Positions 19,764 to 30,591 of a stretch of DNA of 44,896 nt are shown one piece after another. The translations under genes were made by a program, and so were the position numbers. Origin of the DNA: Butyrivibrio sp. (GTDB lineage: Bacteria; Bacillota; Clostridia; Lachnospirales; Lachnospiraceae); assembly GCF_017635265.1 (NCBI RefSeq), contig NZ_JAGBLU010000093.1:1-44896 (forward strand). Reading direction: 5' to 3'. Below the pieces are notes generated by a model. The model was not told the origin of the DNA. It did no database searches and saw only the letters and a program-made list of their open reading frames with translations. Position 1 is the first letter of the stretch. Each line of letters begins with the position of its first letter.

Positions 19764-20552
19764 TTAACGGGCAACTTTATAAGGAAATATTGTTTTATAT
19801 TCTTCGGAGCTGATCTGAAACGAAACAATCTTTGAGCATACATTAAAGAATTGTTGAATATTCTCCTCCGTCACTATTTCATCAGTTTTTCCCATGAGCT
19901 GCTGATTATTATAACCAAGCATCAGTGTTGTATCCGAAATTGCCAGTGCATGGTCGGGAAAATGTGTATTAATAAGACAACTCGTATGATATTCGTTTGA
20001 TATCTTAACAATTGTATCTATTACCCTGAGCTGATTTTTCATATCCAGATTGGATTCCGGTTCATCAAGAATTATAAGTTCCGGCTCAGAAATAAGTGCT
20101 CTCGCAATCATTACCATCTGCAATTCTCCACCGCTAAGGGCATTGCAGAACTTATTTGCAAGCTTTTGTATTCCCAGCATCTCCATTATATTTTCAGCTT
20201 TCTCATAGTCCTCTTTTGAAGGAACCTCAAAAAAGTTTTGCCTGGAATTAAGTCCCATAACAATTGCATCAATACATCTATAAGAGAAAACTCCCTTTTT
20301 TGCCTGAGGAACATATCCGGTTTTTTTCCAGAATTCCTTGTCTGTGTATGAGCTTAGCTTTCGTCCGTCAAGGTAGTTCTCACCACTGTTCCACTTAAGA
20401 AATCCCATGATACACTTAAGCATAGTGGTTTTTCCCACTCCATTTGGCCCAAGTACAGTCATTATTGTATCTTCACCTATTTCAAGATTTATATCCTTTA
20501 AAATAGTCTTATTTCCATATCCAAAGCATCCGTTTTTTACTTCAAGTTTCAT
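19764..20552 (-). CDS. ABC transporter ATPase, FecE/BtuD type
   Basis: 262-residue ATPase of the iron/siderophore/cobalamin importer family. Walker A LGPNGVGKTT, signature LSGGELQMVMIARAL, Walker B LIILDEPESNLD, H-loop INTHFPDHA. The start at 20552 is chosen because GGAGG lies 8 nt upstream, inside the codons of the longer alternative. Last gene of the six-gene nitrogenase-like operon, 32 bp after the permease. Powers import of the ligand captured by the 21639 binding protein. The ligand is unknown; family members carry chelated iron, heme or corrinoids. Confidence 0.92.
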   Translation of the reverse strand: MKLEVKNGCFGYGNKTILKDINLEIGEDTIMTVLGPNGVGKTTMLKCIMGFLKWNSGENYLDGRKLSSYTDKEFWKKTGYVPQAKKGVFSYRCIDAIVMGLNSRQNFFEVPSKEDYEKAENIMEMLGIQKLANKFCNALSGGELQMVMIARALISEPELIILDEPESNLDMKNQLRVIDTIVKISNEYHTSCLINTHFPDHALAISDTTLMLGYNNQQLMGKTDEIVTEENIQQFFNVCSKIVSFQISSEEYKTIFPYKVAR

Positions 20553-20584
20553 ATCGGATTCCTCCATAATTAAAAAGCACGTTA

Positions 20585-21613
20585 TCAGCCACCGGTTTTT
20601 CCCATAGTTTTTCTAAGCATAAATCCAAAGAAAGGTGCTCCAATCATTGCTGTCAATATAGACAACGGAAGTTCTGCCGCTGTAAGGCTTCTGGCAATAC
20701 TGTCAATTATCAGCAAATATCCTGCACCTATAATAATACAGGCAGGAATAAGTCCTCTGTGATCGTCTCCCACTATGAATCTGCCGATATGCGGAATAAC
20801 CAGACCTATCCAGCCTATAATTCCGCAAAGTGATACAGATACAGCCGTCATAAGGGTTGATACTACAATTATAATAAGTCTCAATAATTCTACATTTACG
20901 CCCATGGATATAGCTTCCTCTTCGTCAAGGGACAAAAGATTCATCTTCCACCTGAGCATCATCAAAATAACTGTGCAGGGTAATATAGTACATGCCGCAA
21001 TAACAACCTTGCCATAGGATACAGATGCAAGACTTCCCATCAGCCATACTGTAATAGCAGGGAGTGTATCCTGTGGGTCAGCCACATACTTTATTAAAGA
21101 TATAAGTGCCTCAAAAAAAGCTCCAACTATTACACCTGACAGCACCAGCATAAATAACTCAGTCTTTTTATTAACCCTGGATATCATCAAAACAAGCGCT
21201 ACAGCCAAAAGGCCAAAAATAAGTGCCTGACCTTGAACAATTGCACTGTTTCCCGAAAGTAAAATCCCAAGAGCTGCTCCAAAGCCCGCTCCCGCAGAAA
21301 CTCCCAGAATATCCGGACTAACAAGTGGATTTCCAAATATACACTGATATGATGCGCCGGAGCAGGCAAGACCTGCTCCGACAATCATGCTCATAAGTAT
21401 TCTCGGAAGTCTCACCTGCATAACAACATTTTTTATAAGCGGATCGAGTGTTTCATCCATTGTAAGTGCCTTAAAAACATCTTCAAGTGAAATTGCATAT
21501 CTCCCCACGCAAATTGCAGCAAAGAAAATAATTACAAGTATTAAAATAAGGCAGATAATTTTCAAATGAATTTTCCTGATCAGATCAATATTTTTTGCAG
21601 TCTCTTTTTCCAT
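20585..21613 (-). CDS. ABC transporter permease, FecCD/BtuC type
   Basis: 342 residues, about ten transmembrane helices. Family blocks seen: VRLPRILMSMIVGAGLACSG, GNPLVSPDILGVSAGAGFGA, and the coupling segment GWIGLVIPHIGRFIVGDDHR. Homodimeric permease of type II importers for siderophores, heme or vitamin B12. 25 bp after the binding-protein gene; a single permease gene suggests a homodimer. Confidence 0.94.
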   Translation of the reverse strand: MEKETAKNIDLIRKIHLKIICLILILVIIFFAAICVGRYAISLEDVFKALTMDETLDPLIKNVVMQVRLPRILMSMIVGAGLACSGASYQCIFGNPLVSPDILGVSAGAGFGAALGILLSGNSAIVQGQALIFGLLAVALVLMISRVNKKTELFMLVLSGVIVGAFFEALISLIKYVADPQDTLPAITVWLMGSLASVSYGKVVIAACTILPCTVILMMLRWKMNLLSLDEEEAISMGVNVELLRLIIIVVSTLMTAVSVSLCGIIGWIGLVIPHIGRFIVGDDHRGLIPACIIIGAGYLLIIDSIARSLTAAELPLSILTAMIGAPFFGFMLRKTMGKTGG

Positions 21614-21638
21614 CCGGTCAAATACCTAATTTCTTTCT

Positions 21639-22832
21639 TTAGTTCTGTGTATCACCTAAAATTTCATTCAGCATCTCATCTGTAAGTTCAAAGTTGTAAA
21701 CTTCCTTGTAAAACTCTTTTACTTCTTCATTCATATCCATGTCTTCAAAAGCTTCGGGATGCTGTATCTTTGCAAGCCACTTAATCATAAGAGGTGTTTC
21801 TACTCCCGGTGGATCCCATCTATATCCGCCAATCGGTATTTTGTAAACCTGTCCGCTTTGTACAGCTTCAACAACTGACCAATCCTCTCCCTCAAGCTTG
21901 TTTTCCAAAAGATCTGAAGGCTGCAGTTCAGTGAAATTACCTATGTATATTATTGAAGGGTTCCACTCATAAACCTGCTCCATATTGATATTTAATGCCT
22001 CACCTGACAAATCTCCTGCCGGATTGGTTGCACCACTGTGCTCAAGCCAATATGAAGAGAAGCCGGTTCCTGTCACTTTCATATCATCAGATAAAAGAAG
22101 TACATTAGTGAAATCTTCTTCTGTAAGATCTGCAAGTGCAGCATCTACCTCATCTACCTGCGCATGGAAATAAGCAATCAGCTCCTGAGCTCTTTCAGGC
22201 TTCCCCATCATTGTTGCTATAATCTGAATCCAGGTTTCAAGATCGTCAATTGATCCATATTGAAGTGCAATGACTTTTATTCCTGCATCTTCCATCTTCT
22301 TGATTTCATCTTCCATATAGTTCCACTGGAATACTACATCAGGCTGAAGCTTAATGAGTTCCTCAACATTAACAACAAAGCTCGTATCCACAAACTCTGT
22401 AGATGCATTTGCAAGTTCAAGGTACATATACTTAAGTGCACTGTCGTTATAGGCAACAATTGAAGACGGGTTACATCCTACCAGATTCTCGTTATTTCCT
22501 ACTACGGCATAAAAAATATAAGGAAATGGCATAATAGTTGTAACAACCCTCTCAGGAACACCATCAAGCTCGATAGTTTTTCCCAACTGATCGACGATCG
22601 TGATTGTTCCGTCAGCATTAACCCTGCTTTCGTTTGAAGTGGCTACCTGTGCCTCCTGACTTGATTCAACAGATGCCTGATCAACTGCAGCTGTCACACT
22701 TGCAACGCTTGCAGCTTCTGATGAATCTTCAGTAACTGTAGTTTCCGTTTGGACGCTTCCGCATCCAACAGAACTGAAAAGCATAACAGAACACAAAGTC
22801 GCTGCCAGCTTTTTGAAAAAATCTTTTTTCAT
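21639..22832 (-). CDS. ABC transporter substrate-binding lipoprotein (FecB/BtuF fold)
   Basis: 397 residues with a lipoprotein signal peptide (KKLAATLCSVMLFSSVGC, lipobox SVGC). A Ser/Thr/Glu-rich linker then leads to a class III binding domain: TIVDQLGKTIELDGVPERVV is the usual first strand, followed by LQPDVVFQWN and VEAVQSGQVYKIP. The fold binds metal chelates or tetrapyrroles. It follows the nitrogenase-component genes by 51 bp, so it belongs to the same operon. No motif fixes the ligand. Confidence 0.9.
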   Translation of the reverse strand: MKKDFFKKLAATLCSVMLFSSVGCGSVQTETTVTEDSSEAASVASVTAAVDQASVESSQEAQVATSNESRVNADGTITIVDQLGKTIELDGVPERVVTTIMPFPYIFYAVVGNNENLVGCNPSSIVAYNDSALKYMYLELANASTEFVDTSFVVNVEELIKLQPDVVFQWNYMEDEIKKMEDAGIKVIALQYGSIDDLETWIQIIATMMGKPERAQELIAYFHAQVDEVDAALADLTEEDFTNVLLLSDDMKVTGTGFSSYWLEHSGATNPAGDLSGEALNINMEQVYEWNPSIIYIGNFTELQPSDLLENKLEGEDWSVVEAVQSGQVYKIPIGGYRWDPPGVETPLMIKWLAKIQHPEAFEDMDMNEEVKEFYKEVYNFELTDEMLNEILGDTQN

Positions 22833-22883
22833 TTTCTCCTCTTTCCGAAAAGCAAACGCTTTTCAAATATATATTTGATTAAC

Positions 22884-24062
22884 CTAGGACAAAATTTGCC
22901 CCAAGATATCATCCATCTCTTTTCCGATAAAATGTACGGACTTATTCCAATAAAGCTTACTTGAAATGGCTACATGCGGTATCTCAACGATTTTCATCGA
23001 ATTATTGTCTAAAAGATCACCCAATAGCGGATCTCCGACAAGTTTCTCATATTTCCCCGAATCAATAAGATCAAGAAGCATTTCTTCACTTTTTATATCC
23101 ATATCTCCATCAAGAGCCAGTTCCTTGCGCAGCCCTGTCATAGTTCCAACTACGACATTTATGTCTTTTGTCCTTTTGTTTATATTTCGGCGAATACTGT
23201 TTCCAAGAATCTGCTCTCCTACAATCAGGATTGATTTCTTATCACCAAAACCATTTACTTTACCGCTTTCATCCTTTCCAAGTACTCTGTTAACTTTGTC
23301 TTTTCTTGTCATTTCCAACATATCAATAAGCTCTTCATCATCAGTACCTGTAAACATTCCTGCCACAAAAGGTATTCCATATTTCTCATATAAATACTTG
23401 GCTGTATTAAGTCCCGATTCTGTAACAACAAGATTAACCTGAGCCATGGTTAAATTTTCTATCTGACTAATGCAGGCTCCCATCATCATTTTTCCAACTA
23501 CTCTATAGCCTAAACTGCCGAGCTTATCATATAAATCATCTGCATTTGAATTAGCTGAAAAATCCAATGGCGTAGTGCCAAGAACATTGATGCCTTTATC
23601 AAATTTTTCCTCCGAAGGTTTTATGAACCGCTTAACAACGGCCAGCATAGCTTCGGATACTCCTTTGTTATACAGGCCCAATCCGTTTGTTGAAAAGCCA
23701 AAGGCAGGCAGTCCTGTCAATTCCTCAATTTCATGTGCTATACCTTTTAAATCAGAGCCTATTACCATTGGAACGGGACTTCCTATAATTGAATAGCATG
23801 TCGGATTTTTATATTCCGATGTCTTAAGAACGTTTTTGATAAGTTTGTCGTCCCTGCCAAGAACTGCATCTATTTCTCTAAGTCCCGAGCAATATACCAT
23901 GGATTTTGTCCCATACCATCTTGGCTCGTCATATCCTGTATAATTACCTGTACATCCGGATGCATCGTGAATAATACTCATTCCGCCCAAATCGAACATG
24001 GCGGAACAAACTCCTGAATAATCCGGTGCAATGGCAGGTAATGTAATCCATAACTGTTCCAC
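22884..24062 (-). CDS. Nitrogenase component 1-like subunit (NifK/NifE-like)
   Basis: 392 residues, shorter than NifK (~460-520). The N-terminus APDYSGVCSAMFDLGGMSII…HDASGCTGNYTGYDEPRWYG matches the component-1 pattern (C…AL…GI…HG…GC). Cysteines are at 19, 37, 58 and 89. Where family members have S-T-C-V-P before IGDD, this protein has GSPVPMVIGSD, so the third canonical cluster cysteine is missing. Presumed partner of the 24084 product as heterotetramer, reduced by the NifH-like ATPase. No nifB, nifE/N or nifV is present. A divergent nitrogenase-like (broadly 'group IV') enzyme of unknown substrate is most likely. Confidence 0.85.
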   Translation of the reverse strand: MEQLWITLPAIAPDYSGVCSAMFDLGGMSIIHDASGCTGNYTGYDEPRWYGTKSMVYCSGLREIDAVLGRDDKLIKNVLKTSEYKNPTCYSIIGSPVPMVIGSDLKGIAHEIEELTGLPAFGFSTNGLGLYNKGVSEAMLAVVKRFIKPSEEKFDKGINVLGTTPLDFSANSNADDLYDKLGSLGYRVVGKMMMGACISQIENLTMAQVNLVVTESGLNTAKYLYEKYGIPFVAGMFTGTDDEELIDMLEMTRKDKVNRVLGKDESGKVNGFGDKKSILIVGEQILGNSIRRNINKRTKDINVVVGTMTGLRKELALDGDMDIKSEEMLLDLIDSGKYEKLVGDPLLGDLLDNNSMKIVEIPHVAISSKLYWNKSVHFIGKEMDDILGQILS

Positions 24063-24083
24063 TGTTTTTTCCTCTTTTATCTG

Positions 24084-25358
24084 TTAAACAATAATAATCG
24101 CATCATCCAGAATTTTCTTTAAATCTGTGATTTCATCTTTAGTTTCACGCATTTTTTTCAGCAGTTCTATGAGGCCATTGTAGCCAAACAATCCATTCTG
24201 GCCTCCTATGTCAACCACATGTTTCGCACCTGATATATAACCTGCACTATAGCCAACCGCCAAATAATCTTCAGACACATGTTCTTCTTCCGTCACCTTT
24301 GGATTAAGCGGCTGACGAATCTCCATCTCAGGATAATTTTCCATCACCCATTCATAGTTTTCCTTGTCAGATGGAATCAACAACTGTGAATATATTCTTC
24401 TGACATTTAATCCGGCTTCAAGAAGGCATCTGGCAAATTCAAATGGTCTGGTAATAGCTTCCTGATCCACTATGATAGGCATATTTTCCAAATAGTTTCT
24501 TGTCAACTCAAGTTCTTTTCTTGCTCTGCTTTCATAGCTTTCAAGTTCAGGACACTCACATCCAAGTTTTTCGGCTATTTTTTCATATCCCGCCCTTATA
24601 TTCTCAGGTCTAAATGCAATCAGTACTTTCTCATAGGGAATTTGAAGCTTTTTTTGCATATTTCTTGCTGCATATTCTCCTGACGGTGCAATTACAACAT
24701 TAAGTGCACTTTTTGCCATATCCTGATAATTATCAAAAGACTTATAGTCAGATATGTGCCTTATTTCATCGGCTCCCATTGAAAGTAACACTTCGAATAA
24801 TTCACTGTTCTTTGATATTTCCTGCAAATTCCCGATAATATTTATGCCTTTGTCTCTGTCATCATTTCTCTCAAGAACTGAATACAGTTTATTCTGCACA
24901 TTTACAACCGGGGGAACTCCTGTATCTGTCGATGTCGGATTCATGTGACAGTCAATAAATTTTATCCCCGGATACATATCACAAAGTTCAGCCATAAGCG
25001 CCTCATGGTCCGTTCCAAGAAGATCGTCTATACAGCTGACAAAAATTCCCATAACTCTTGGTACTCTATTTCTTTTTTTTAAAAAAGAAAGAAGTTCTTC
25101 AAGAGCATCTTTAAGCATTTGTTCATAGTCACCGGATACAATTGACTGTTCGGTTAAAAACAAATACGAAACACGCTCTTTTCTGCCATCCATTCTGGCA
25201 CCAAGCGCTCCATGCCTTCCGCACGCTGCCGGACTTACAAACAAAAAATAACTCTCAGGTATCAGCTGTGCTGCTTTTAATACTCCCCAGCTACCATGGG
25301 CAGGAGATGAATAATGAAGGCTTGTTTCAAACACATTGTCTATCAAGCTGCAACTCAT
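24084..25358 (-). CDS. Nitrogenase component 1-like subunit (NifD-like)
   Basis: 424 residues. [16 protein letters not shown] (Cys46) and [14 protein letters not shown] (Cys109) correspond to the second and third cluster cysteines of NifD/BchN. The 63-residue spacing is intermediate between BchN and NifD. The first cysteine, expected near residue 20, is replaced (SSPAHGSW). Cys275/His442-type cofactor ligands of NifD could not be identified. The gene overlaps the nifH-like gene by 32 bp and has GGAGG 8 nt before its ATG, implying tight coupling. It is followed after 21 bp by the second subunit. Function unknown. Confidence 0.85.
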
Positions 25359-26112
25359 AGGCGCTTACCTCCAAAACTTTTTCTGCCAGAGTCCTGTAAC
25401 AACCTGCCATTCTTGAATCGGGAAGTGCTTCAATAACTGTCTTTCCCTGTGCTTCTGCCTGTTGAACAGCTCCGTCACGCGGAATTACGCATAACACTTT
25501 TTCACCCATTTCATTTACGGCTTTTTCAACAATTTCCACTTCGTTTTCTACGTTTCTGCTGTTTAATATAATTCCACCAAGTTTTGCATAACCTCTTTTT
25601 CCAAAATTATGAACAGCACTGACTATATTGGATGCTGCATAAAGAGCCATCATCTCGCCTGAAGTTACGACAAGTACATGATCAGCATATCCTTCTCTTA
25701 TAGGCATAGCGAAGCCACCGCAAACCACGTCTCCAAGCACATCATAAAGCACAATATCCGGTTTATATATATCGTATGCTCCCAGTTCCTCCAGCTTATC
25801 GAAAGCCGTTATTATGCCTCTTCCTGCACAACCGATTCCCGGTGTCGGTCCTCCGGCCTCTACACAGAGGATATCGCGAAAGCCCTTGAAAACAATATCG
25901 TCAAGCTCAACTCCTGTTGGGCCTTTATCTCTAATCTGATCAAGAACTGTGGGTATCTTTACTCCATTCATCAAACATTTTGTTGAATCGGATTTGGGAT
26001 CACAGCCAATCTGCATTACCTTATATCCGGCATCTGCCAATGCCGCAGATAAATTTGAAGTTGTGGTGGACTTTCCAATGCCACCTTTGCCATATACAGC
26101 AATTTTTACCAT
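25327..26112 (-). CDS. NifH-like nitrogenase iron protein (reductase ATPase)
   Basis: 261 residues; P-loop NTPase that would pass electrons from a bridging [4Fe-4S] cluster to the component-1-like partner. [12 protein letters not shown] is Walker [10 protein letters not shown] follows. Both cluster ligands are present: Cys95 in PGIGCAGRG, with Arg98 equivalent to the ADP-ribosylation arginine of NifH, and Cys131 in [16 protein letters not shown]. The start at 26112 follows AGGAGAAACTT; the seven upstream codons are discarded. Shorter than NifH (~275-295) at the C-terminus. First gene of the operon, divergent from a CRP-like regulator. Confidence 0.93.
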
Positions 26113-26253: not shown

Positions 26254-26317
26254 TTGTATATAAGCGCTTTTTGTATTAAAATATCGGAGTAGAATGTTAG
26301 CTATTGCTAACCACTGA
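26254..26317 (+). promoter_or_regulatory. Regulator promoter and 7-codon leader ORF
   Basis: TTGTAT (26254-26259), 17 bp, TAAAAT (26277-26282). Just after it CGGAGTAGA precedes an ATG at 26294 that opens M-L-A-I-A-N-H-stop. Within that mini-ORF GTTAGC and GCTAAC form a 6-bp inverted repeat. It is better provided with ribosome binding sequence than the main ORF and could be a regulatory leader peptide. Confidence 0.45.
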
Positions 26318-26375
26318 CAAGATTATCAAATATAGAAAGAATAATATGTTGCCTACGCAACACTTTTTGATTTTT

Positions 26376-27047
26376 ATGGAAAACATTCAAGAACTGGGAA
26401 AATGCAGACTTTTTAAAGATATAGATTTTTCTGATATAGATTTACTTTTAGAAAAATCAGACTACTATATCAAAGAATATCTGAAAGGAGCTGACATATA
26501 TCCCGCAGATTCACCAATCAGCCATGCAGGAATAATATTATCCGGAGAAGTCGATGTATTGCACACCTCGATACACGGAGATGAGGAAATTGTAGGAAGG
26601 GATTGCAAAGGGGATATAATCGGACCGGCTTTTTGCATAACAGGAACCTGCAACGATCTGTCTCAATTCAGAGTCAGGAATAATGTAATAGTTTTCTTCT
26701 TTAATATTAACAAAATACTGGAAAATCCGGTTTGTTCCGAATACTATTCGATATTTATAAGAAATCTGACAAACATATTGGCTTCTAATAATATAATCCT
26801 TAATCGTAAGATCAAGCTATTAACAAGGCGCTCCCTTAGAGAAAAGCTGATGGTATATTTTATTCATCTGTCTGATATGGCCGGCAGTAATAGCTTTGAG
26901 CTGCATTTTACCAGAGAAGAACTTGCAAGATATGTCTTTTCCGAGCGTTCATCTGTTTGCCGGGAGCTTGGAAAAATGCAGGATGATGGACTTATAAAGG
27001 TAAACGGCAATATTATCACAATTTCCAATGACTTTTCATTCACATAA
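26376..27047 (+). CDS. CRP/FNR-family transcriptional regulator
   Basis: 223 residues from this start: an N-terminal cyclic-nucleotide-binding-type beta barrel (SHAGIILSGEVDVLHTSIHG) and a C-terminal Crp-type winged helix (FTREELARYVFSERSSVCRE) with recognition helix SERSSVCREL. The FNR N-terminal cysteine cluster is absent, so oxygen sensing by [4Fe-4S] in the FNR manner is unlikely. The ligand is unknown. The start is uncertain: ATG 26376 fits family length but lacks an RBS, and ATG 26346 adds ten residues with a weak AGAAAG. Divergent from, and probably regulator of, the nitrogenase-like operon. Confidence 0.85.
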   Translation: MENIQELGKCRLFKDIDFSDIDLLLEKSDYYIKEYLKGADIYPADSPISHAGIILSGEVDVLHTSIHGDEEIVGRDCKGDIIGPAFCITGTCNDLSQFRVRNNVIVFFFNINKILENPVCSEYYSIFIRNLTNILASNNIILNRKIKLLTRRSLREKLMVYFIHLSDMAGSNSFELHFTREELARYVFSERSSVCRELGKMQDDGLIKVNGNIITISNDFSFT

Positions 27048-30403: not shown

Positions 30404-30591
30404 TTTAATTCCTCCATTTACAAATAAATAATAGTTTAATGAGAAGCTTTACTCCTCCTGCTCCGGTAATCTTGTCCAGAGCTGTTACTTGTTTGATTGG
30501 GGCTTTATTGCCCAATCGGACAGTACTTAATCCGATCTTTCCAATACGCAATTCATTATTGGTATCAAAAAGTAATCCGAAACGGCTCGAA

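Follow-up and report, generated by a model that had tools for sequence, protein, structure and literature searches.

Analysis of a 44,896-nucleotide stretch of DNA of a Butyrivibrio sp. (contig NZ_JAGBLU010000093.1 of assembly GCF_017635265.1; contig C67 in our numbering and hereafter the window, from a genome that is 88% complete) revealed an operon in which a nitrogenase-like trio (HDK), consisting of a NifH-like ATPase (H) and two component-1-like subunits (D and K), stands together with an ATP-binding cassette (ABC) importer of the FecBCD type, made up of a substrate-binding lipoprotein (S), a permease (P) and an ATPase (A). We propose, with evenly balanced confidence, that the six genes specify a two-component reductase that is driven by ATP, coupled to import and active on a metal complex, probably of iron. 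S, P and A would bring in this complex, H would supply D/K with low-potential electrons through ATP hydrolysis, and D and K would form a catalytic component similar to that of DPOR, holding a single [4Fe-4S] cluster between the two subunits but no cofactor of the FeMo type, which would bind the imported complex and reduce it directly. What the data show is the gene content, the co-conservation, the correlation between the importer and reductase trees, the cysteine pattern and the predicted fold; the direction of transport, the [4Fe-4S] cluster and the reduction of the imported compound are inferred. That an iron complex serves as a building block is suggested more tentatively, since the suggestion comes from a related clade with an orthologous importer that is tied to assembly of the H-cluster of [FeFe]-hydrogenases where HydG, which is known to supply the CO and CN ligands to these enzymes, is missing.

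H, D and K fell below the NCBIfam cut-offs for NifH, NifD, NifE, BchL, BchX, BchN, BchB, CfbC and CfbD, a comparison made with a collection that includes no Mar or Isr model, which supports the earlier suggestion of a reductase outside N2 fixation. H scored 351.8 bits with nifH (cut-off 394.35) and 348.7 bits with CfbC (cut-off 402), D reached 35.1 bits with the nitrogenase alpha subfamily (cut-off 486.05), and K gave 44.2 bits with nifD (cut-off 653.55) and 24.8 bits with CfbD (cut-off 268.4); D and K are two different subunits, whereas CfbCD has a single component-1 subunit. The Bch models yielded 206.4 (BchL, cut-off 345.15), 197.3 (BchX, 331.2), 18.6 (BchN, 419.95) and 47.1 bits (BchB, 490.35). 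The best match of H in the PDB was 9fmg_D (279 bits), the Fe protein chain of a complex that is a Mar complex according to its title, followed by NifH Fe proteins at 272 bits and lower, and the best sequence matches of D and K were NifE chains. The predicted fold of K was nearest to BchB, and the fold of the catalytic component agrees with the DPOR/COR type. The only invariant cysteines were Cys46 and Cys109 of D (52 sequences aligned) and Cys37 of K (55 sequences aligned), and none of them corresponds to the cofactor cysteine of nitrogenase, Cys275. The three invariant cysteines, two in D and one in K, lead us to expect an enzyme of the DPOR kind that holds a single [4Fe-4S] cluster.

A preliminary description of the window had made the presence of the importer in related genomes decisive for the proposed import and reductive modification of a chelate. 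Scanning named genomes with a profile yielded 584 candidate stretches, of which the best 80 were retained (they span several phyla, with titles that include Clostridia, Spirochaetes, Synergistes and Chloroflexi; at least seven are the same contigs as loci of the family set described below, and L086 and L114 share one contig). S, P and A together were found near D/K in 50 of these 80 loci and at least S or P in 66, counts in which misses are likely, as genes were labelled by our own scheme and the open reading frame (ORF) picker loses genes in GC-rich contigs. Three loci had only an ABC ATPase, part of an Opp/Dpp-type system there, nine had no importer genes, several of them at contig ends, and two gave no D/K call. 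Because the operon is conserved across related loci, a chance arrangement is excluded. The same operon is present in [Clostridium] aminophilum DSM 10710, whose D is 69% identical. The distances in the D/K (DK) and S trees were correlated (Mantel r of 0.57, 0 of 999 permutations, 70 distinct loci, no correction for descent; r of 0.55 when duplicate loci were kept). Import of a chelate followed by its reductive modification is still the best reading, now with a co-conserved importer; a tetrapyrrole in particular is not supported, as discussed below.

We also searched 299 genomes of the same family. At E 1e-5, D had matches in 57 of them, with scores of at least 127 bits in 39 and of at most 42 bits in the other 18. 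Maps of the strong loci and the DK trees distinguished clade A, which unites trios standing with an importer and with HydE, HydF or TM1266 and the second trio of the double clusters, clade B, for the most part first trios of double clusters in the order HDK-HypF-HypD-HypE-HDK, and the remaining importer-linked loci, among them the window, whose DK lies outside clade A. Clade A had a support of 1.0 (33 loci), and its eleven S proteins formed one bipartition with a support of 0.85 (0.91 with duplicates). When the tree is rooted on clade B, clade A arises from a series of importer-linked loci, so that the importer looks older than this clade; nearest to it were L065 (0.94), four loci (0.98) and another four loci (0.99). 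Beside clade A, the FecBCD-type importer alternates with HypDEF and a second trio. Sampled HypF, HypD, HypE, HypC, HydE, HydF and TM1266 members were all over cut-off. Double clusters of the form HDK-HypF-HypD-HypE-(TM1266)-HDK-(HydF)-(HydE) were observed in HydG-less genomes (L045, L048, L056, L058, L060, L062-L064, L069 and others). A HypC gene over cut-off lies between HypF and HypD in family f45 of the class (L220, 11011-11223), and 70-residue genes occupy this place in L219-L224 where called. The C-terminal tail of clade-A D proteins carries a GxGC motif in 19 of 19 aligned sequences (e.g., L046, 9470-10789), and the D of the window is without it.

HydE was over cut-off in 159 of the 299 family genomes and HydG in 131 (E 1e-70 gave 132 rows, of which one is a fragment), the lower-scoring HydG matches resembling ThiH and HydE by length and position. 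The HDK family was present in 25 of the 31 genomes with HydE and without HydG, one of these 25 (G048) being of the window's kind, versus 4 of the 128 genomes with both (Fisher p of 1.5e-19, 298 genera, no correction for descent). All 18 genomes that combine HypD with a clade-A or clade-B trio had HydE and none had HydG, and a HypF gene lay within the fetched HDK stretch in 17 of them (the exception was G091). The seven importer-type clade-A genomes all had HydE and none had HypD; HydG was present in one (G224), and HydF was not over cut-off in another (G175). Two sets of genomes depart from this link with HydG. Six genomes with HydE and without HydG lack the trio (G011, G128, G246, G086, G142 and G181, which are 86, 69, 77, 100, 94 and 97% complete, respectively), and ten genomes carry the trio without HydE, eight of the window's kind plus G245 and G285.

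As an independent test, a clade-A profile was run over 391 genomes of the class and gave 21 matches at E 1e-40, one of them the window. Fifteen of them lie outside the family and scored at least 450 bits versus 348 for the next; they represent seven families and eight genera, six genomes belonging to one genus. The tree placed 11 of these 15 in clade A, and the other four were dropped by length or label filters. HydG was found in 0 of the 15 clade-A-like genomes (97-100% complete) versus 22 of 40 controls of the class, chosen by handle number and 62-100% complete (Fisher p of 1.1e-4), and in four of the five remaining matches of the scan (G419 and G485 there coincide with loci L095 and L089). 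Five of the 15 stretches were importer-type, nine Hyp-type and one neither (G694); six of the fetched stretches contained HydE, and twelve contained HydE, HydF or TM1266 or more than one of these. We thus consider it reasonably probable that the clade-A trio replaces HydG.

Several observations on the window's own relatives weigh against extending these findings to it and against the reading proposed above. The window's group (47 loci) joins the side of clade A at a support of only 0.61, so that its position as sister group is not firmly supported. Among the eleven importer-linked family genomes outside clade A (G072 placed by D similarity only, G152 nearer to A), HydE was present in three and HydG in two, and HydG was also present in 20 of the 50 genomes behind the 80 loci, with an overlap of four with the family count. 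The S protein, given its match to HI_1472 (see below), might possibly bind an oxyanion, and the exchange of FecBCD-type for Opp-type importers beside the trio could mean different substrates. Replacement of HydG as the general role of the window's group was rejected on these HydG counts (20 of 50 and 2 of 11 genomes), and the H-cluster context is not simply transferable to the window, because its kind occurs with or without HydG. In the genome of the window, neither HydE nor HydF nor HydG exceeded its cut-off, and none of the four scanned genes flanking the operon is HydE, HydF, TM1266 or HypDEF. HydA without a maturase was rejected as a mark of the window's group, being also seen in the HDK-free genomes G105 and G160. 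Intact H-cluster motifs were observed in [FeFe]-hydrogenases of genomes without HydE, HydF or HydG over cut-off, both with and without the trio (L161, L163, L164, L166, L167, L168, L172 and L173).

Since the importer and HypDEF with the clade-B trio alternate beside the clade-A enzyme, the simplest inference is that import supplies in clade A what HypDEF and the clade-B trio make, an iron-cyanide-carbonyl unit or its precursor. As the window has the orthologous importer, it probably handles a related metal complex. A more far-reaching proposal, which we rate as rather unlikely, is that HDK opens a way to the iron-carbonyl-cyanide unit of the H-cluster that does not need HydG. Clade A would either make this unit or its precursor inside the cell, through HypCDEF and a second trio, or import it ready-made through FecBCD, the window representing an older, importer-only stock that scavenges the same class of iron complex from neighbouring cells and reduces it. 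Nitrogenase-like enzymes that do not fix N2 are common and for the most part lack an assigned function, and a clade that is tied to HydG loss in gut anaerobes and other Clostridia, and in which the importer takes the place of HypDEF, makes part of this question testable. If this pattern is read correctly, there would be a second way of building the H-cluster, the two hydrogenase maturation systems would be connected, and an organometallic building block might be imported. Even with an ordinary iron chelate as substrate, import-coupled, ATP-driven reduction of the nitrogenase type would, to our knowledge, be new.

Among the alternatives, the one that fares best, though somewhat unlikely, is close to a suggestion of Dos Santos 2012: the importer would deliver a metal (iron, molybdate, tungstate or nickel) for the reductase or its cluster, and the substrate of the enzyme would be something else, made in the cell. 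A family profile of S matched, in the PDB, 4ovk (E 2e-100), HI_1472 (3e-42), 4hn9 and then the Ni/Fe binder 4ino (1.5e-26), and the matches to HI_1472, presumably the molybdate/tungstate binder MolA, and to 4ino fit metal supply. So do the HypB/CobW-like GTPase genes beside five of the 80 loci (L089, L096, L100, L112 and L129, all importer-type operons, with Treponema and Tissierella included), which in L089, L100 and L112 are followed by an orphan ABC ATPase and an SBP_bac_6-like protein. However, an enzyme with a single [4Fe-4S] cluster hardly needs a dedicated importer, and what replaces the importer in clade A, HypDEF with a second trio, is not a metal importer. We consider it quite unlikely that D/K is a NifEN-like assembly platform for another metal cluster, to which the importer supplies a part, instead of a catalyst; the NifE matches of D and K and the maturases adjoining clade A would suit such a scaffold, but the operon has no NifB-like gene and D/K no invariant cofactor cysteine. 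Nutritional use of iron, in which an imported ferric siderophore would be reductively freed of its iron by H/D/K, is decidedly unlikely: the FecB/FecCD/FecE family and the iron-binding relatives of S favour it, but ATP-driven NifH chemistry would be far stronger than ferric reduction needs, no siderophore gene is among the families recurring beside the 80 loci, and clade-A operons with HydE or HydF would be left unexplained. Reduction of an imported tetrapyrrole (heme, corrinoid or porphyrin), the lead of the preliminary description, is very unlikely despite the BchB-like fold of K and the heme and B12 systems among FecBCD-type importers, as no tetrapyrrole gene is among the same recurring families, S matches the heme binder IsdE (5e-14) and BtuF (6e-9) much more weakly than the proteins named above, and K is at least 119 residues shorter than full BchB chains (511-536 residues).

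Recurrent neighbours were rejected as a clue to the substrate, since the families found in at least four of the 80 loci did not name one. Apart from the core genes and the GTPase, they comprised a CRP regulator, parts of Opp/Dpp-type transporters and methyltransferase-like, SDR-like and P-type ATPase proteins; the last three and the transporter permeases were named by eye, except that the P-type ATPase and the Opp substrate-binding protein were each checked once with Pfam. An Opp/Dpp-type (peptide or nickel) importer replaces the FecBCD type beside the trio in L140, L141, L146 and L159, and a permease of this type also occurs there in L133 and L145.

DPOR resembles the window enzyme in being a two-component, ATP-driven reductase with three cysteines, and the fold of K is nearest to BchB. 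The window proteins differ in scoring below all Bch cut-offs, in their link to an importer and in a cysteine distribution of two in D and one in K, compared with three in the N subunit and an aspartate in the B subunit of DPOR. MarHDK and IsrHDK likewise combine a NifH-like protein with two component-1 subunits and do not fix N2. MarHDK has a radical SAM B partner and sulfur genes. IsrHDK is described with a radical SAM B partner and sulfur genes as well (PMC11423573).

Nitrogenase-like genes beside ABC transporters were printed in 2012 for Methanocorpusculum labreanum and Clostridium cellulovorans with no function assigned, and metal transport, which would favour metal supply, and cluster assembly were suggested for such neighbourhoods in the passages concerned (PMC3464626). 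In this respect the preliminary description needs correcting, as this kind of arrangement is already on record (PMC3464626). By their description, the M. labreanum and Desulfitobacterium hafniense proteins have the same cysteine count as the window, two in a D/E-like and one in a K/N-like subunit, plus an ABC transporter, and the passages on this group of Dos Santos 2012 contain no link to HydG loss (PMC3464626). The NifHEN-like pairs with hydrogenase maturation genes reported there for Coprococcus catus correspond, again by description, to the double clusters of clades A and B with HypDEF (PMC3464626), unlike the window's group, which has an importer and no adjoining Hyp or Hyd genes. A study of eight acetogens did not detect HydG in five of them and reported HypCDEF, which make Fe(CN)2CO, without HypAB in five; the explanations given in the passages concerned are a divergent HydG candidate and free diatomics (PMC9431212). 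Passages of PMC9147875 and PMC10418091 have no direct bearing on the matter. In the open PMC literature, outside which most subscription journals lie, we found no statement that a nitrogenase-like HDK replaces HydG and no paper joining these facts.

As previously described, H, D, K, S, P and A are six genes on the same strand, with ORFs and Pfam families in agreement (Table 1); the two component-1-like subunits scored 77 and 90 bits with Oxidored_nitro, and the lipobox of S, read by eye, is VGC. H and D overlap by 32 bp, and the gaps between D and K, K and S, and S and P are 21, 51 and 25 bp, all as given before. The 32 bp given for P and A is reproduced only from the second in-frame ATG of A, the gap to the first being 17 bp.

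Table 1. Genes of the operon and the divergent regulator gene in the window.
Gene	Product	Position	Strand	Family and features
H	NifH-like ATPase / reductase component, 261 aa	25327-26112	-	Pfam Fer4_NifH, 332 bits
D	Component-1-like subunit, 424 aa	24084-25358	-	Oxidored_nitro; invariant Cys46 and Cys109
K	Component-1-like subunit, 392 aa, GTG start	22884-24062	-	Oxidored_nitro; invariant Cys37, motif HDASGC...DEPRW
S	FecB-type substrate-binding lipoprotein, 397 aa	21639-22832	-	Peripla_BP_2, 84 bits
P	FecCD-type permease, 342 aa	20585-21613	-	FecCD, 301 bits
A	FecE-type ABC ATPase, 267 aa	19764-20567	-	ABC_tran, 103 bits
	CRP/FNR-family regulator, divergent from the operon	26304-27047	+	HTH_Crp_2, weak cNMP_binding

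The adjoining CRP/FNR-type gene possibly encodes the regulator of the operon; a CRP-type gene was present in 10 of the 80 related loci and directly adjacent in seven.

The absence of nif cofactor genes, claimed earlier, was checked in part. A search of the whole genome with PF00148, in which the nifB and nifV families were not included, gave four matches, two in the operon and a pair on contig C27, so that the preliminary description has to be corrected by a second nitrogenase-like set in the genome. The H protein of C27 was over the nifH cut-off, and the one component-1 protein scanned there was under all cut-offs. This set (L075, 11285-17338) also encodes, as judged by eye, cysteine-synthase-like, NifX-like and radical SAM NifB/MarB-like proteins, and is probably a second, sulfur-linked nitrogenase-like enzyme of the Mar/Isr type.

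No riboswitch or RNA leader that might hint at the substrate was found at the operon; in the six sources scanned, only a tRNA and an S4 leader exceeded the gathering scores. The latter, an S4-Clostridia ribosomal protein leader RNA, lies at 30492-30541 on the minus strand, in the ribosomal protein region that adjoins the operon.

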